A DNA stretch of 64,000 nucleotides from positions 351,762,203-351,826,202 of the forward strand of contig NC_081824.1 of the NCBI RefSeq assembly GCF_030867095.1, written 5' to 3'. The notes below the pieces were generated by a model. It was not told the origin of the DNA. It searched no databases and was given only the letters and a program-made list of their open reading frames with translations. This stretch comes from Alligator mississippiensis. Lineage: Eukaryota; Chordata; Crocodylia; Alligatoridae. Below, piece by piece: positions 3,501 to 36,100 of the stretch. The translations under genes were made by a program, and so were the position numbers. Positions within the stretch are counted from its first letter, which is position 1, and each line of letters opens with the position of its first letter.

Positions 3501-6500
3501 GTTCTTCCATCTGCTGATCAATCCCCAAGGCTACAATTACTGCCACTACTAACAACTCTGTGTGTTGCAACCTTGTAAGTTTAGGGAAGAATCTTACTTC
3601 TCAGCAGTCAGCCCCTAGATAGAATCCAGATATGCATTTTCATGGAGGTCATTTTAAGTTTTCTGTAATATCTAAGAATATATTCAAACCAGGATGCAGA
3701 GTTGTATCTGGCCAGCAGAGACCAGTACTGAAATTAAGCACTACATGTCACATTGATTCTTCAGTAGGGCAAAAGCTGAGCTGACTTTTTCCTGCAGACT
3801 TCCCTTCTAGGAGAATAATAGATTGCCATGAGGAGGTACTCTAGGTCTCCCTTTCTACAGTGGCAGCTTTCATTTGTAAAGTTGGGAGAAGGCAGCCTGC
3901 CCAAGCTAAAAAAGATGCATGAGAAGTAGAATGTCATGTATTAAACATTAACTGTGCTATCAGAATTGCACACTGCTGACAAGGAGCATCAGGAATAGAA
4001 GTGGCTGAACCAGTCAAGTCACTCAATGCTTAAATAAAGGAAAACCGTACCTAGATGTTACAAAAGGTGGGTATGACCCAGAATTTCTTTAACATGCAAA
4101 AACATCTGGAAAGGCAAGAGAGAAAAAACTAATAGGGGAAAGAGGAGGCAATACTATGTGGAAAGGATGGGATAGACTGGAGGTATAGAAATGGATACTG
4201 ATCACCCTTATCCTGAAAGTTGGTCCTACTTATCTCCACTAAATACTTGTCTTATGACCTGTAGAGAGACTCAAATAATATTTTTACAATAGTCTTGTTG
4301 ATATATTGCCAGTTTCTTCTGTCGAGACATTTTCAGGCAGGAGAACTGAACTGAGACTATAAACCCATTTCACAAAAGGCCACTTTACAGCTATTACACC
4401 AAATCGCTTTTATTACTGATTTCAGGTTATGCAAATCACTAAAAATCTAGCATAAAGACAGACTGAAGATTTGCTTGCTAGTGTTTTTTTGTTTTGTTTT
4501 TTAAAGGAAATACTTACCATTTACACTTAAGGTATTATTCACAAGATATGCTTCAAGCGTAACATTGCTAAGAGTAACATTGACATTCTTCATATTGACC
4601 TGGTCTGTACTGATGCATCGGTATCTTGTACCCAAGTTTGCCTGAATATCAGTTTTTTGTGATACTTCCATTGTTCCTGTAACAGAACATTTACATTTGT
4701 TGTAACTATAATCTCTAGACAACATTTAATAGAAAAGAGTATTATACATGTATGCATTTAGAATAAACAGTGGAAAGAACCTTGAATTTTCACCTCACCT
4801 CCAGCTGAGGAACTGGGGAAGAAAGCTGCATCAGACAAATTGTAACTGAAGGTTAACTCTTCAACTCTGTACTGGTTTGAGGTCTTCATGAATTTCAGGC
4901 TTAAGGACTGTCCCATTCCAAATCCAATCACGAGAACTGGAGTAGGTGCATCCCCTTTACCACAAGTGCTGTTGTGCAGTACAGTAGCAGTTTGTGGAAG
5001 TGCAAAATTTGCCATCTAAAGATGGTAAGATGAAACACACTTAAGAATTAGTAAACGCCTCTTTTAGTACTACTGCCCCCAACTTCCTTTCAATTACAGT
5101 AAAATCTCTGTTAACCTTACAAGCCAGCATGCACTGTTAACCGACATGCCGGCTTGTAAGGAAAAATGAAACTGGAAGTGCCCACTGTGGCACTTCTGGT
5201 TTCTCTGAGCCCCCACGGCCTGGGGCAAAGCAGCCTGCGCTGCTGAGTCCCCATGGCCTGGGGGCATAACAGGCTGCACGGGGCCCGCCTCCTGGTTCCA
5301 TGGGAGGGTCGGCGGTGCCCTGGACATGGCAGGAGAAGCAGTGCCCCAAACAGGCAAGGACACCTGTTCCTGCATTCCTGGGGGATGCCAGATAACAGAG
5401 CTTTTACTGTATATCAGTGCAGAGCCAGACTCAGTTACTACAAGTTGAAATGTTCAAAAATATCAATATTTCAAAATTAGTTGCCTGGCTTGAGTACCAT
5501 CTTATCTGAGGTAGTCCAAACATGGGCCATATCATTTGCTGCTCCCTTTTAGTTTTCACCATTGGAAATGTGTAGTACTTGCTCAGATCCTCTCCTTCAG
5601 CAGGTGGAATGCCATTCACCAGTTGAAGTAACAACTGCAGCATTTTTAATTATATTCTCTGCCTTGAGCTACTCAGCAGCTTCTAATGAGACATCCCATG
5701 GTGGGGAGTGAGGGCATGAGAGGGCAGACAAGATCATTAACATCCCACCAATTACACCTTTATAACGACTTAAAGACAGCGATGCCAAGGGTTCCAGGTC
5801 CAACTACAAATTGTTTTGAAGTAAAATTGCTTGTCTAACATTATCCATGCGGTTTTTCCAATAAAAAGTTAATCACTCAAAGAATTCTCGTCTCTTGCAT
5901 GATCCCTGGACCAACATCGCCACAACATCACTTCAACACTACCAAAACATGAAAGACATCAAAATCCTCTACTGACACCCCGTGACAGTTGCCCCGACCC
6001 CTGGTCGCTATCTTGGGACCAGAAGTCCCACCCCTTGCCCCCAGAAATACTCCTTTTGGGAGAGGAAGGGGGTGCTACTTTAAAACCAGAAAAAAACCCC
6101 AAATCATATACTAGAAGTCAAACACCTGCTATAACATACCTTAATTTTATTACAAAAAATGTTTTTTTTGTCATGATTTGTGTTTGCATTGTGTATATAG
6201 AAGTGCTTACATAATAACTAAAAATAAGTTCTTAGTCTTGTATATTTGGGGAAGTTGTGTGCGCATATGGTGGGGTGCAGGTGTATGGTGGGGTGTGGGT
6301 GTGTGAGAGGGACACAGGATATGTTGGGGGGTTGTGTATATGTGGGGGGTTATGGGGTCAGGGTTTGGGTGTGCGGCCTTTGTAGGGTGTGGGGACCCCC
6401 TACACTCCCCCCGTGGCATAGCAGCAGGCAGGGGTGCTCAAGGCACTCGTGCTCAGTGCAGGGGCTGGTGCCTGGCGGGACGCAGCTCCGGCTAGTGCTG

Positions 6501-15500: not shown

Positions 15501-18500
15501 TAAAATTCCCCATAGCTCCTGCTGTCGGCTCCGCTCTGATCCGGGTGCACGCACCCGCACCCATGCCCTGCCGCTGCTTGCAAGTCGGCTTGTCTGGGAG
15601 GTGTGGGGAGATTGGGCAAGCAGCAGGGAGGGAATAGCCCCCACTCCCAGTGCCTTCTGTCACCCATCTGGAGCAAAGCCTGGCCCAGCCTGCCTCACGC
15701 AGATCTGGGGGCACCCTTGCCCTCCCGGACTGGCCACACACAGTGCTGCCGAATCTCCTTCGAATTGAATTGGCTATTGAAGCTTTGCACAGCCCTAGTA
15801 GTTAGCTGTGTTAGTCTGAAGTCAGGCAGAAGGCAGGGAAGATATGCATCTTATAAATTAGATAAGATATACAGAGCACCAGCTTTTGTGAGCTCAAGTT
15901 CATCAGATTCATTGGATGCATCACTGTTTTTGCCATCTTCGTGCTCTTTAGATGCATCTGATTAAATGAATTCGAGCTCACAAAAAGCTGGTGCTCTGTA
16001 TCTCTCTGTTAATTTATGAAGATGCATATCTACCCTGCCTTCTGCTATTAGCTGTATCCTCTCCAGTACAATTTAGCAAGGCTATTTTACCAAGGGGCCA
16101 GTCCTTAAGTCCACTGTCAACTCACAAGTTTGAACCTAAGAAGCCCACCTCAAATTGAAAATAAGGATTAATGATCTACTTAGCAACTGCATGGCTACTT
16201 ATTACACCTTCAGGAGTTTTCAGCATGCAAATACACCACATTTCTTCCAAAGCCAGAAAAGCTGCAGACCATGCCAAATGATTTGACATACTAAGGATTT
16301 GACAGCTGAGATGATACTGTATAGTAGAAGCCCTTTGCGACTGCATTAAAAGGAACATGCCTGAGTAAGCAATTGTGCCAATATCAGGGGCTTCTATGAT
16401 GCATTGTTTGAAACACAGCATGCTACTTAAGGTTTTTTTATTTTTGTTTTTAAAAAGTCAAGAGCTTAAGATTCAGATAACAAGATTTCACAACAAAGTT
16501 CCATGAGGTTCAGACTGAGGTCCTATACAAAGTGTTACTGATTTCTGATAATTGCTTTCCAAACAAAACTAAATAAATAAATCGCTGCTATCCCTCAATA
16601 TGGCCTGTAACAGGGACTCAAGCAGGAGCCCTGTTACTTAGACAAGGTCTGGTCAGACTGACCCAATGATGACCCCTATCAGGTGGGAGGAATTACACAT
16701 TCGAGACAAGATTGGGTGATTAGCCTGTGAAAAACCGGCATAAAACCGGTGGTGGGAGACCGACCGATTGCCTTTGGGCACAAGAAAAAGGTGAGAGAGA
16801 CAAGAAGCCCATTTGACAACCTGGGAAAAGATGTCGGGACTACAGGACCCAAGATGAAAGATGTCAGGCAAGCTTTTTACCTTACTACTCAGGCAATCCC
16901 AGTGAGTGTGAGGAGAGCCAAGACATGGCATAGCAGCTCGGCAGGGGAATCCCAAATAGTGATAAAAACCCTGGGACCCTTGGGTGGGCAAGAGGGTCCC
17001 AGGCTGGACTAAACCCTGACCCCATATCCACAGCTTTGCCATGTGCGGTGGTGCAGAGAGCAAGAGGATAACCTAGACTGCTCCCGGCACTCAATAGAAG
17101 CTAGAGGCATGGGAAACGCACTTTGCTAATAAGACAATCAGCACTTAGACGGTGCTACGTCCTAACTGGAGAGGCATCCAGTGTTGCAAGATCTGCTCGG
17201 CAACTCAGACATGTCTCGCTAATGAGGTAATTGGTGAGACTTCTGCTTCTGTTCTACTTTTCTTTGGGAAATAAACTTGCATAAAGTATGTACCATCTGG
17301 GCAGTTTTATTTGATCCTTAGCCATAAAAGACCACTGATCTCCTTCTTTTTCCTTTGATCTAAATTGTGGCAGGCAAGTACAGCGGGGAGACGCAGCTAG
17401 GCTCACCCTCCCGCTCACAAAGTGGTGCATTGGCCGGGAAACCAGTCATTAACAAACCCCGGCAACATGGAGTCCATGGACACGCATGTCCCAATGGACT
17501 GGCAGCAGGGGCACAGTATTACTCTCTGGCTCCTGCAGGGGCAACAAGCGCAGCTGGAGGAGATTGTAAGGGTGCATGCCCAAGAAGCAGAGGCACGAAT
17601 CCGTCTTTTCTCTCAGCAGCAGGATTTATGTGAGGAAAATTGAGGTGCAGGTGTCACTGGGGAGAGAGGGTGACAGGGCCAGACTTCCCTAGATGACGAT
17701 GTGGAAGCGTATCTAGAAGCCTTTGAAAGGACGGCCACGGCTGCAAAATGGGACCCCAGCAGCTGGGCAGCACGGATTGGACTCCTTCTCATCGGGCCAG
17801 CACATGCTGCTTATTGGGCTCTTAGCAGGGTAGAGACCCGAGATTACAGGAAGGTAAAGGAAACCATATTATACCGGCTAGAGTTTTCCACAGAAACCTA
17901 CCGTCAAAAGTTTTGGGCCCGGAAGGGAACGGAGGGGGCTCATCCCTGCCTGCTAGCACAAATGATAAGGGATTTGGCAAACAGTGGTTACAGCCAGAGA
18001 CTCATACCCTATAGGAAGTGGTGGATCTCATCGTCCTGGAGCAATTCCTGACTGATCTCAGTAATAGCTCTCAGCAGTGGGTGCGACACCACCAGCCCAA
18101 GACAGTGGAAGAAGCTTTGCAGCTCACTGAGGATTATGCCACTGCTGAAGGGGATGGTGAAGCTCCTAGGAGAGACCGACCAGAAGGTCCAGCACTAGGA
18201 ACTCGACAAGGAACACCTAAGCCAGTCGCAGTGGGTGAGAATACCCAAAATGCAGGAAGGGAACTTCGAATTTGGGACTCTAGAAAAGTTACACGCTACA
18301 GATGTGGAGAAAAAAAAAGACATCTCCCGGTTCTGCCCACAGAAAACCGAGACCAAAACTTCTGTCGATATTACACATGATGAGAAAATGGATTGTAGTT
18401 TTGGACAACATAAGGGCCCAGGCTGTCAGAACAAACTGGTGGTCGAGGTAAAAGTCAGAGACACCATCATACCAACGGTGGCTGATACTGGTTGCTCCCA

Positions 18501-21500
18501 GTCAATGATTTGGGTGGATCTTTTCCCCTCTTATCTAGGGGGTCCGGAGAGTCTGGTAAGCATGATCTGCATCCACGGGGCTTCCTATACCTATGAACGC
18601 AAGGTGGTTCTGCTTACTGTACTCAGTCGCACAGAAGACACTGCCGTGGGTCTAGCCAAAACCCTACCCTGCCCCATGCTTCTGGGAGTAGATTAGCCCT
18701 ATCTCAAGGAAGTCATTGCTCGAGTCATCACTAAGAAAGGTGGAGACTGGGACCAAGACTCTGGAATGGTCTGCTCTGGAGATCCTAAGGAAGGCAAGCA
18801 AGATGATCTGGATATAGAACAACTTATAGGCAAGGGGTATTTTTGGGATGAGCAAAGACAAGAGCCCCTGTTCCAGAATATCTAGTGGTCTCAACTGGCA
18901 AAAGATGAAGGAGAGGTAGTGGATCATCAGAAGGCTGAGCAAAATCCACGGTATGAGGCAAGGAGGGGCATCCTCTAGTGGGTGAAGAGCCAAGAAGATG
19001 GGGAGGAGAGGAGCCAAATCCTTATTCCCCACATGTATTGGGAGACCCTGTTGAAGGTTGCCCGCACACTCCCTATGGGAGGGCATCTAGGACGGGATAA
19101 GACGGAAGCACATCTGAAATGGTGCGTCTTCTGGCCCGGCCTTTACAAAATGGTAGAGAGATTCTGTGCGGAATGCCCCCAGTGTCAAATGACCGGAAGG
19201 GTGAAACCTGGGACGGTACCCTTGATATCAATGCCCCTGGCAGCACGGCTATTTGCTCGTATTGCCCTGGATGTGGTATGGCCATTTCCTCGGAGCAGAT
19301 CAGGGTATCAATTTATTTTAGTAATAATTGATTATGCAACCCACTTTCCTGAAGCAGTACCCCTGAGATCAGTAATGGTTACGGCCATAGCTGGGGCTCC
19401 GCTGAAGTACATTGCGTGGGTGGGCATTCCCCATGAAATTCTTACTGATCAAGGAAAGAAATTTATGTCCAAAATCCTAAAAAGGGTCTGCCAGGTTTTG
19501 AGGATTAAGCAATTGCACACCTCCATCTATTACCCTCAGACTGATAGCCTAGTGGAGCATTTTAATCGCACCTTGAAAGGGATGATTTGGGCCTGTATTC
19601 AGGGGGATCCCCGGGAGTAGGACGCCATGATACCTCCACCAGGATCGGCTTTATTTGATCCTTAGCCATAAAAGACCACTGATCTCCTTCTTTTTCCTTT
19701 TGATCTAAATTGTGGCAGGCAAGTACAGTGGGGGAGACGCAGTTAGGATCACCCTCCCGCTCACATGACCGAACACCCCAACAGAGAAAGCCAAATACAG
19801 ATTGCTATGTATTTCACGCAGCTATTGTGTTAAGTGTGTACTTTAAATCTGGGTTAGGCAAATTCCCCTGCCCACAATCACTCTTGCAAGTCAGTGATTT
19901 CCAGAAAGTGTGTGAGAGAGGACAGTGGTTAAGCAACATATGCAAAGCAAGCACTGAGAACCAATACACCACTGACAAGGTTCAAAACTGCTAGACCAAA
20001 GTTGTAAAAAAGGAATGTCTGAACATTGCATCAAGCACTCCGAGAAACCCATATTCCTCATTTTGTTCTCAAGTCCAATTACTAAATATACTCTTACTAA
20101 TGGAGAATTTATTCTCTAAAAATTCAGATTTTTGCAATTGAGTCTTTCAATACAAGAATATACATGAATGTATCCTTCTGCATGTTTCAGCAGCAGCAAC
20201 CAAGAGAAAAAAGTAAGTTCTTCATCCTTCACTGCACCATGCCCCAATGTCTACCATACAACTAACATGCTCACTGATGCTGTAGGTTTCTGCTACAAGT
20301 GCTCAGTAGGAAATACTTACCAAATGTGTAAAATGTCACCAGATTAAACAAGCCACTAAGTTTGAGTGAAAAGTTTTCCATGCCTTGGGCTTACTGTTTT
20401 AAGTTATCTATGCAATCAAGGAGATAGTGTGCTGACTGATATTCTTTGAGTTTGTTAAAATGTGATACTGGCCATGTGTATCCTGTCTATATTTTACTAT
20501 TCAGTATTGCGTCACTTGATTGAGGTTCACAGCTATGTTTAAAGGGTGGCATTCTGTATTGTAGACAAACCCTAGAGATTTAGTTTTAAAAAGTCTTCAA
20601 ATCAGATTTTTTGTGATCTTATGGTCTCTTGGGCAACGTTAAAAAAAAAGGCTGAAATTTGAGAGCAGATGTCTAGAGAATTCACTTGATGAAAGGGAGT
20701 TCTCCAGCCTGCAGGCAGATAAAGGGAGAGGACATGTTAGAGCATCTACTATAGCCATTTCCCACCAACATAAGATCCACGTATCCCAAGCAAGGCTGTG
20801 ACACAGAAAAGACTCTCCCCTTCCCCCACAAAGTTCTACAATTAAGTAGCTAATTCAAGGATGACAATTATGTAAATAATTACACATCTATATGGCAACG
20901 ATTGGCCAATGATCCCACAACTAAAAAGATTAGTCAGTTTTATCTTTCTTCCTCTCTGTTTTGTAACACCAATCTGACCAGCGAGATACTGCCAAGAACC
21001 AGTCCAATGGCTATGTCAAAGCTACAAGTAAAGTGCAGCAGGCATTCACAACCAATGACTGCTAAATAAAGCCAGAAAAGTCTCCATTCAGTCCATAAGA
21101 CATCACTAGAAGGTCCAGCTGAAGACTCCACAGAGGCTCCCAATGCAGAATACAGAACATCTTAGTGAATTAAGCCCTAGACAGGATACAGAAGCCATAC
21201 AGATAACTGCTATCATTAATACCACCAGCTCAGCTCTCCTTCCTGGTCAGGGAGAAACTTTAAGGAAATTTGTTATTTTAGTAAAGTAGTATGAGAGTTA
21301 AAGTGTCTGAAGGCAAAGTTAGGTATGAGTAGGTGCTTAAGCTACTGACAGTAGCCAGCACTCCATCTCCACTACAGCTTCTAACTTTGATTACACTAGG
21401 GAAGCTGAACTGGTGTCAGTGATAACACGTCTTTGCACAGTTTTGCTCTTATTGACAAGGCTTCACAATAGTTCCTGCGCTACTACTGTGCTATACAGTA

Positions 21501-33100: not shown

Positions 33101-36100
33101 TGGTATTGCACATTAGATCCCATTGCACCTTATTGCCAGTGAAAAGGAACCTGATCCCGAGCTTCCCCTGCGCTGGCAAGAAGCAAGCTCCCACAGCTGG
33201 GAGCCCCATGCACCCCAGTTGATCCTCAGGTCCTAGGGATCATGGCAGCTGCAATCCCCAGGGTCCAGAAGTTTCATGTACTCCCAAAGCCCTAAGGCAG
33301 CCATGACACCAAGGGCTCTGGGGTGCATGAAACCCATGGATCCTGGCGATCGTGGCTGTTAGGATCCCTAGGGCTCAGGTGTTTTACATTGGGCACAGTG
33401 CACCCCTACCGCTAGCAGCCCCATCAGCTGATGGGGCTTCCAGCTGCAGGGGAGACCCTGCTACATGTGTATATTAAAGCTTGATAGCAACTAGCTATAA
33501 AATTAGTACACATTTTTGAGGTCTAACTTTATAGCTGGTTGGTGCTTTTTATTGTGTGACAGCTATTTTGCATGTGTAGATGGCCTCCAAGTAATTTTGC
33601 AATTAGCTAGTTAATTGCACAGTACCTGTACCATGTCAATGGGTTCTAAAGGCCCACCCTGCAACTCTTAAATGTAATTCTGGACTGTAGTTTCAGCATT
33701 GTACAAGACATGAATAAACCCAGTCTCAACCTTGGAGGCCATATCCAGAGAAGCACGGCCGTATGGTATGTGGTGCTGCAAACATGTCTGCGGCGCCACA
33801 CACTGCACATTCAGATGTTCTCCATGCTGCAAGGGAACATTTCCCATGTGTGAGCTGCTCTGCTTTTTTTTTTTCTCTACAGGTTTTTTTTTTTTTGACC
33901 TCTCAGGGGTCAAAAAAACACCCCCCGAAAAAAAGCAGAGCTGGGCTGCCCAGAGCTGTGCTCTGGCTGCTGGCCAGGCTCTGCACGGCAGAATCACTAA
34001 TGCTGCAGCCCCAGGAGGCCTCCAGGACAGGCTGCTGGGGCCAACCCAGTGCTGGCCCCAGCCTCCCCTACCCAACCCGGGGTAACTTACTGCACGCCAA
34101 AGCGCACATGCACAGGAGTTTCCTGGGGACCAGTAGCAGCAGTGCAAGGTGTGCCACCACTACTTGTCCCCAGGGATCCAAATGTCCACACGTGTGGACA
34201 TGCCCAAAGAGTTTAAAATCCAAAGACAAAGGTAAAACAAGAACGCATTCAGACAATTGGTAACTGGGGGTAATATAGCTATTTGGAAACAAAGTAATAT
34301 AATGCATTCATAGTTTCATAGATGTTAGGGTTGGAAGGGACCTATTACATCTTCGAGTCTGACCCCCTGCCCTGGGCAGGAATGAATATTGGAGTCAGAT
34401 GACCCCAGCCAGGTGTCTGTTCAATCTCCTTTTAAACACCTCCAAGGAAGGGGACAGCACCACCTCCCTTGGAAGCTTATTCCATGTTTTGACAACCCTC
34501 ACTGTAAAGAATTTTTTCCTGATGTCCAATCTGAATTTGCTCTCTTCCAGTTTGTTGCCATTATTTCTAGTTAGCCCGACAGGCGCCCTGATAAACATTG
34601 TATTCCCTATTTCTTGCTGGCCCCCCCGATGAGTTTGTAGGCGGCCACGAGATCACCTCTCAGCCTCCTCTTGCGGAGGCTGAAGAGGTTCAGGTCTCCC
34701 AATCGGTCCACGTAGGGGTTTTTCTGTAGGCCTTTAACCAGACGAGTGTCCCTCCTCTGAACCTTCTCCAGGCCATCCACATCCCTCTCGAAGTGCGGTG
34801 CCCAAAACTGGATGCAGTACTCCAGCTGTGGCCTGACCATGCCGCATAGAGGGGAAGTATCACCTCACTAGACCTGTTTGTGATGCACCTACTTATGCAA
34901 GAAAGGATGCAGTTAGCCTTACTTATTACTTCATCACACTGGTGACTCATGTTCATTTTGGAGTCGTCTATGACTCCGAGATCCCTTTCTGCAGTTGTGC
35001 TACTTAGAGTGGTACCTCCCAGGCTGTAGGAGTGTCTTCCTCCCCAGGTGCAACAAATGACACTTATCCTTGGTAAACTGCATGCTATTCTGTTCAGCCC
35101 ATTTGCCCAGCCTGTCCAAATCAGTTCCTTACAATCTAGTTTGTGTACCTCCCCCAATAGTTTGGTGTTGTCAGCAAACTTGGACAGGGTGCTTTCTACC
35201 CCCTCATCCAAGTCATTAACGAAGGTATTGAATAGTACCGGTCCCAGGACAGAGCCTTGGGGGACTCCGCTGCCCACATTTCTCCAGGTAGAAACCGACC
35301 CACGCACCACTACTCTCTGGGTGCGTCCCAGAAGCCAATTTTCTACCCACCGGACTGTGTAATAATCTACATTGCAATTGTTTAGCTTATTTATAAGACT
35401 TGGGCGTGACACTGTGTGAAAGGCCTTTTTAAAATCCAAGTAAATAACATCTACCTCTGCTCCTTTGTCCAAGCCTTTTGTGACACGGTCGTAAAATGAA
35501 ACCAGGTTAGTCAGGCAGGATCTGCCTGCTATGAACCCATGCTGATTACCCCTTAGCATCATTTTACCTGCTGGTCCCCCACAAATGTGATCCTTAATAA
35601 TTTTCTCAAAGGTCTTGCCAAGGATAGAGGTGAGACTAACCGGCCTATAGTTACCGGGTTCCTCCTTCCTCCCCTTCTTGAAAATAGGAACCACATTGGC
35701 CCTTTTCCAATCCTCTGGGACCTGTTCTGAGCACCATGAATGCTCAAACAGTTGTGCCAGCGGCTCTGCTATGACTCCAGCTAATTCCCTAAGTACTCTA
35801 GGATGAAGATCATCAGGACCTGTTGACTTAAATACATTCAACCCCTCCAGGTGTCCCTTTACTAGGTCAGCTCGAACAGTTGGTGGGTTGGTATCTATAC
35901 TGGTCTTACCCAAGGTCCCAATGGGATGCGTATTTGTATTCATGTCCAGGAACACAGATGCAAAGAAATCATTTAGAAGCTCCTCTTTGGCCATCCTGTG
36001 TTACCAGTTGCCCTAGTTCATCCTGAGATAGCCCTAAGTTACCCTCTACCTTCTTTTAGCTTCCTATGTACTTAAAGAATGACTTTTTGTTATCCTTAAT

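Follow-up and report, generated by a model that had tools for sequence, protein, structure and literature searches.

A decayed, probably Gmr1-like Ty3/Gypsy retrotransposon with a SCAN-like capsid end in or beside a LAMP1-like gene of Alligator mississippiensis

Gmr1-like elements are Ty3/Gypsy retrotransposons marked by an integrase that lies before the reverse transcriptase, as described in passages of PMC3587641 and PMC2774666. Parts of PMC4592553 and PMC3424704 derive the SCAN domain from Gmr1-like gag; the work of Emerson and Thomas (2011) on this origin is relayed in sections of both papers and of PMC6525542 and PMC11011659, and PMC4592553 in part places acquisition of the domain near the amniote root. 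For frogs, SCAN is reported in over 50% of Gmr elements in a portion of PMC4131045. Here we describe a locus of this apparent kind in a 64,000-nt stretch of the Alligator mississippiensis genome (NC_081824.1; hereafter the window, with positions counted from its first letter). Positions 16606–19765 of the plus strand are occupied by a truncated and broken long terminal repeat (LTR) retrotransposon that consists of a 5' LTR, primer site, gag, protease, integrase and a 3' LTR stub. We assign a probability of roughly 0.9 to the reading that this is a dead Gmr1-like Ty3/Gypsy element that inserted by a LAMP1-like gene, was later truncated, and decayed without selection, its 3' stub having probably been homogenised with the 5' LTR. 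A literature search for prior descriptions showed that the SCAN–Gmr1 link, like the presence of SCAN in Gmr1 elements of frogs, was already known; among the titles listed none dealt with this copy, which is what one would expect for a single dead insertion. It is a further member of a known element type, real but ordinary.

The SCAN-like end of the capsid (18015–18149, plus strand) matches positions 43–87 of the SCAN profile PF02023, which is its second half, with 46.2 bits (E 4e-12) for a shorter piece and 43.4 bits (E 2.9e-11) for a longer one, against a cut-off of 27 bits. The same region reaches 17.9 bits with the Ty3_capsid profile, which is under the cut-off, and it matches the SCAN proteins ZNF24 (E 1.6e-5) and PEG3 (E 5.3e-4) in the PDB. 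A stop at 18012 lies just before it. The first half of the domain is in pieces in other frames, and these gave no match when searched singly against Pfam. A related copy in the same genome (L032, on C2) scores 41.6 bits over PF02023 positions 3–65, all in a single natural frame, and matches ZNF24 with E 3.8e-7. The initial annotation had taken the locus for a Gypsy fossil with a SCAN-like capsid and given it the coordinates used here, and both points hold, the 5' LTR occupying 16606–17419 and the 3' LTR remnant about 19650–19765.

The integrase (18979–19617, plus strand) comprises the H2C2 finger and the greater part of the catalytic core, and it ends at a stop codon at 19618 that is also found in L032. 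The finger scores 51.5 bits with the H2C2 profile (cut-off 25.5). PDB matches of the integrase include those of PFV (E 1.4e-16) and Ty3 (E 1.2e-11), while an NCBIfam search with it returned transposase matches alone, all far below cut-off. Directly 3' of the protease is a linker with an N-terminal extension of the integrase (18697–18978, plus strand; stops at 18883 and 18976), with no reverse transcriptase between them. The same adjacency of protease and integrase is present in an open 290-aa frame of another related copy, L033.

Gene order was examined in the relatives of the element, which were collected by searches of its own genome (2.35 Gb, 195 contigs; loci labelled L0xx). The survey covered 1.5 kb on each side of 29 related loci (L055–L083), including L055, the source of the protease and reverse transcriptase queries, which is the same copy as L033. 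Protease lies before integrase in 27 of the 29 loci, and reverse transcriptase lies after integrase in 25 and before it in none. L033 itself has two LTRs, a protease that matches RVP with 29.1 bits (cut-off 20.7) and, 3' of the integrase, RT_RNaseH_2 with 82.3 bits (cut-off 29.8) and RVT_1 with 27.8 bits, slightly below its cut-off of 29.6. A profile of host SCAN domains matches 19 of the 29 loci at a domain E of 0.01 or less, with L077 among them marginal. Because integrase precedes reverse transcriptase in 25 of 29 relatives and never the reverse, the window copy appears to be of the Gmr1-like kind proposed in the initial annotation; this placement is supported by gene order in the relatives and the published definition. 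Both features of such elements are seen, the upstream integrase in the relatives and the SCAN-like C-terminal part of the capsid. However, the window copy differs from Gmr1-like elements in being broken and truncated after the integrase. Ty3 of yeast, with which it shares the integrase match and the weak capsid match given above, has its reverse transcriptase before its integrase, in contrast to the window copy's relatives. Alternatively, the locus could be a canonical Gypsy element in which the sequence between protease and integrase, reverse transcriptase included, was deleted; the window copy indeed retains no reverse transcriptase. However, the order seen in the 29 loci, within the 1.5 kb surveyed on each side, argues so strongly against such a deletion that it can hardly be credited.

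The hallmarks of an LTR retrotransposon are all present. The 5' LTR (16606–17419, plus strand) is complete at 814 nt and has the ends TG...CA. It is preceded by a target-site duplicate, TGGCC (16601–16605, no strand assigned), whose partner TGACC lies at 19766–19770. The primer-binding site (17423–17439, plus strand) consists of 17 bases complementary to the tRNA 3' fragment TCCCGGCCAATGCACCA, presumably of tRNA-Gly. Scanning the window with Rfam and for tRNAs gave no match. The fragment itself is printed in a table of PMC7330628, and it lies inside longer fragments in a portion of PMC12025293.

The remaining coding pieces also lie on the plus strand. The N-terminal piece of gag (17467–17640) ends at a frame change. 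The N-terminal part of the capsid and the start of the SCAN-like part (17674–17991) lie between frame changes and are 68% identical to the gag of L032. A degraded zinc knuckle of the nucleocapsid (18290–18345), read from the sequence, itself holds a frame change, and its counterpart in L032 scores 20.7 bits with zf-CCHC, 0.1 below the cut-off. The protease (18331–18720) has its DTG motif at 18484–18492 and a stop at 18694, and is 74% identical to the protease piece of L033 in a tblastn search. Alignment with L033 extends to about 19641, and LTR sequence follows. The 3' LTR stub (19650–19765, plus strand) is the last 114–116 bases of the LTR, and about 700 LTR bases are deleted together with the rest of pol.

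The coding region is heavily decayed. Compared with L032 and L033, four frame-shifting length changes are private to the window copy, as are four stops (18012, 18694, 18883 and 18976) at which both relatives have an amino acid. The fifth stop, at 19618, is common to the window copy and L032; among 29 other related loci (L033 and L055 counted once) the codon is tryptophan in 26 and a stop in three (L068, L074 and L079). Changes private to the window copy amount to 144 in 2149 sites (6.7%), and those in the coding pieces are divided among the three codon positions as 48/41/51 (P 0.57 for equal shares), compared with 43/43/29 for L032 (P 0.18) and 53/51/132 for the class that combines L033 with ancestral changes. 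The even spread of the private changes over codon positions argues that they gathered without selection, and no present function is visible in the window copy. Its combination of SCAN and integrase could suggest a host gene domesticated from such an element. However, the five stops, the four frame-shifting changes, the LTR, the primer site and the even distribution over codon positions make domestication exceedingly improbable.

Two other treatments of these changes were set aside. Hypermutation by a deaminase is not supported, with 39 window-specific G>A changes compared with 25 C>T and 13 of the 39 G>A changes before G. A clock based on seven stops (P 0.0005) was rejected because only four of the stops are private: two sit where frame changes have put the reading out of register, and L032 has one as well.

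The region between 19618 and 19650 can be compared directly with L032. Both copies have the common stop at the end of the integrase and have lost everything after it, and they enter the LTR at different points. A shared, inherited deletion was considered and rejected. The break points of the two copies are offset by some 17 bases on one side and some 150 on the other, and each copy keeps a whole 5' LTR; we therefore take the two LTR losses as separate. The loss in the window copy is placed after insertion, as an intact 5' LTR remains and the target duplicate is still found right next to the 3' stub. The parent of the window copy and L032 may already have been short of reverse transcriptase.

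The age of the copy depends on which part of it is measured. Over 114 aligned bases the 5' and 3' LTR pieces show three substitutions, together with two single-base length differences in runs. The resulting Kimura two-parameter distance (K2P) of 0.027 corresponds to 34 million years (My) for a rate of 3.9e-10 per site per year, which its own authors call rough in a passage of PMC4299795. The 6.7% private divergence corresponds at that rate to about 170 My, which dates the split from L032 and is thus an upper bound for the insertion. The LTR pairs of L032 and L033 have K2P distances of 0.118 and 0.117, equivalent to about 150 My. If each LTR copy had diverged by 6.7%, about 15 differences would be expected in 114 bases rather than the three seen (P 0.0002). 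Similarly, had neutral decay been confined to the span dated by the LTRs, the third positions should carry about 72 changes, whereas 51 were seen; the test is blind to a defective parent moved in trans. An insertion as recent as about 34 My ago thus has the LTR divergence on one side and both the branch length and the codon-position pattern on the other. The initial annotation had noted an LTR difference of about 3%; the figure is accurate as a count, but as a date it conflicts with the private changes and with the LTR pairs of L032 and L033.

Two causes fit the low divergence: the LTRs were homogenised, or a parent that was already dead was copied in trans at a late stage. According to the second, the LTR clock is right, and most of the neutral decay occurred earlier, in a defective parent moved by working relatives. 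The three differences in 114 bases are what this explanation takes at face value. The stop shared with L032 at a codon that is otherwise mostly tryptophan raises the possibility that the parent of both copies was itself defective, and related elements with long frames exist, uninterrupted frames of more than 1000 aa being present in at least eight integrase matches among those listed. However, a recent defective parent should leave close siblings. An LTR query returned at least 47 rows, two of them the window copy itself, and the nearest other copy is 87% identical (best 40 of 195 candidates scored). An integrase query returned at least 151 matches including the window copy, the best other integrase being 77% identical and one partial row 79% (best 150 of 6739 candidates scored). 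In addition, L068, L074 and L079 have acquired a stop at 19618 too, so the one shared with L032 may be parallel. We consider late movement in trans unlikely, though worth retaining as a tentative account, and favor an older insertion followed by homogenisation. The LTR remnant is an unreliable indicator of how old the window copy is.

Both dates are later than the acquisition of SCAN near the amniote root, as placed in part of PMC4592553, and so the family was active after the domain arose. The initial annotation drew this conclusion from the LTR difference; the evidence for it is now better. The matches with frames of more than 1000 aa place the activity of related elements at a much later time than the decay of the window copy.

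Several observations weigh against the reading of a decayed Gmr1-like element with a homogenised stub. The window copy has no reverse transcriptase, and its own gene order is visible as protease–integrase adjacency only; its placement as Gmr1-like would rest on relatives and a definition rather than on a tree with reference Gmr1 sequences. Neither the N-terminal piece of the capsid (Pfam and PDB) nor the protease piece gave a significant match. The initial annotation had suggested SCAN and integrase profile checks, and while SCAN was significant and H2C2 well over its cut-off, the rve match of the integrase, at 31.5 bits, is slightly below its cut-off of 32.6. The target duplicate matches at four of five bases, compared with five of five in L032 and L033. 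Homogenisation is deduced from the shortfall of differences (3 compared with about 15) rather than observed, and the intron position discussed below is one that we infer. Finally, five stops are found where the LTR clock predicts 1.3 (P 0.012), a difference that fades at the upper LTR limit (P 0.35); with one of the five shared with L032, the stop count is weak evidence against that clock.

The relationship of the element to host SCAN domains was examined in an unrooted tree. The hosts (n = 32) were 30 SCAN exons of the alligator genome, comprising the ten best rows and 20 picked by hand from 150, together with ZNF24 and PEG3 from the PDB, the only two sequences from outside this genome. The elements (n = 22) were drawn from 32 capsids with any match and were those whose match covered over 60 profile positions within a single frame, together with the window copy and L059; ten shorter capsids were left out, and nine of the 22 came from ten stretches chosen for matching the capsid query. 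All 22 element capsids fall on one side of a branch of length 0.93 and all 32 hosts on the other, with support of 100/100 as read from the Newick string (the label 83.5/94 on the rerooted tree is shifted). Within the elements, the window copy clusters with L066, L059 and L032 (88.9/99). Mean identity to the host SCANs is about equal for the two element groups (0.327 and 0.316).

The initial annotation had viewed the element as a remnant of the same Gmr1-like lineage from which vertebrates obtained SCAN. Consistent with descent from that lineage, the capsid end matches SCAN far better than Ty3_capsid (46.2 compared with 17.9 bits), the window copy is 45% identical to ZNF24 over shared columns, and SCAN is derived from Gmr1-like gag in the parts of PMC4592553 and PMC3424704 cited above. 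However, both element groups are about equally far from the hosts across a long, fully supported branch, and the host SCANs are neither nested in nor sister to this lineage in particular, as opposed to Gmr1-like elements as a whole. Given the clean split, the window copy is better described as a cousin of the host SCANs, and we judge descent from the donor itself to be improbable. As the tree is unrooted, direction cannot be read from it; for a transfer from gag to SCAN we follow the literature. The element and the SCAN domains of zinc-finger proteins such as ZNF24 and PEG3 share the PF02023 profile over its cut-off, but the window version is set within gag beside a protease and an integrase and groups apart from the hosts.

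A search of the genome for SCAN placed all 150 scored candidates over the cut-off (the best 150 of 2002). The 30 exons inspected are host-type and lack gag neighbors, with one chance-like CCHC and no DTG motif. It is conceivable, although doubtful, that SCAN-capsid elements were active into recent times beside large host SCAN clusters and that host SCAN proteins may still bind and restrain element capsids. If so, an arms race between capsid and SCAN could be tested in one living animal. A single dead copy among many has by itself little significance. However, it offers a worked example of how dating from a short LTR remnant can understate the age of a fossil several-fold, and a genome in which SCAN-capsid elements coexist with expanded host SCAN genes is suited to tests of the SCAN takeover. 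The SCAN matches are clustered on C1 (448–453, 465–466 and 482–486 Mb), C7 (0.4–2.3 Mb), C5 (220 Mb), C15 (5.6 and 20–28 Mb) and C16 (11–18 Mb).

The history that we propose would begin with an element of the Gmr1-like kind, copied through a tRNA-primed RNA inside a shell built of a capsid protein with a SCAN-like end; the anatomy is observed, and these steps are those expected of the kind. Its integrase would have inserted it on the plus strand with a 5-bp target duplication. A deletion from the end of the integrase into the 3' LTR would have followed, and stops and frame changes would have accumulated in the absence of selection. The remaining 3' LTR end was probably brought into line with the 5' LTR by homogenisation, so that the copy would look younger than it is.

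The host site is marked by minus-strand exons of a gene for a LAMP1-like lysosomal protein (E 4.4e-18 at 334–639 and E 1.5e-14 at 4761–5015), beside which is a Cullin-4-like gene, also on the minus strand (Cullin-4A 2.7e-26, Cullin-4B 1.4e-25). Identification as LAMP2 was rejected (PDB E 8.5e-7, compared with 1.5e-14 for LAMP1), as was a specific assignment to CUL4B; the two names are used because the PDB matches favor LAMP1 and hardly separate Cullin-4A from Cullin-4B. The element is antisense in, or just upstream of, the LAMP1-like gene. A candidate first exon near 25.1 kb, together with its splice donor, was read by eye and has no Pfam match. If this exon is real the element is intronic; otherwise it lies between the two genes. 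The intron location given in the initial annotation is therefore likely, and hangs on that exon.

Some further observations concern the family and its surroundings. Six LTRs (L014, L015, L017, L018, L021 and L028) have no matching internal sequence within 1.5 kb and are probably solo LTRs; their 5-bp target duplicates match at 4–5 of 5 bases. Searches of viral contigs returned one match of 22% with the integrase and none with two gag pieces, and no relatives were found in a collection of genome contigs outside the alligator genome or in phage records. Many LTR matches (L029, L030 and others) span only about the first 181 bases of the window LTR, some with the last 200 in addition, as if the middles of LTRs had been swapped between subfamilies. 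Just upstream of the retrotransposon is a palindromic element (15826–16045) with inverted arms of 27 and 35 nt that are 96% and 86% complementary. Further along the window, the minus strand carries a LINE (34398–36000) with a 436-aa open frame that matches RVT_1 with 89.1 bits and that we take, from its sequence style, to be CR1.

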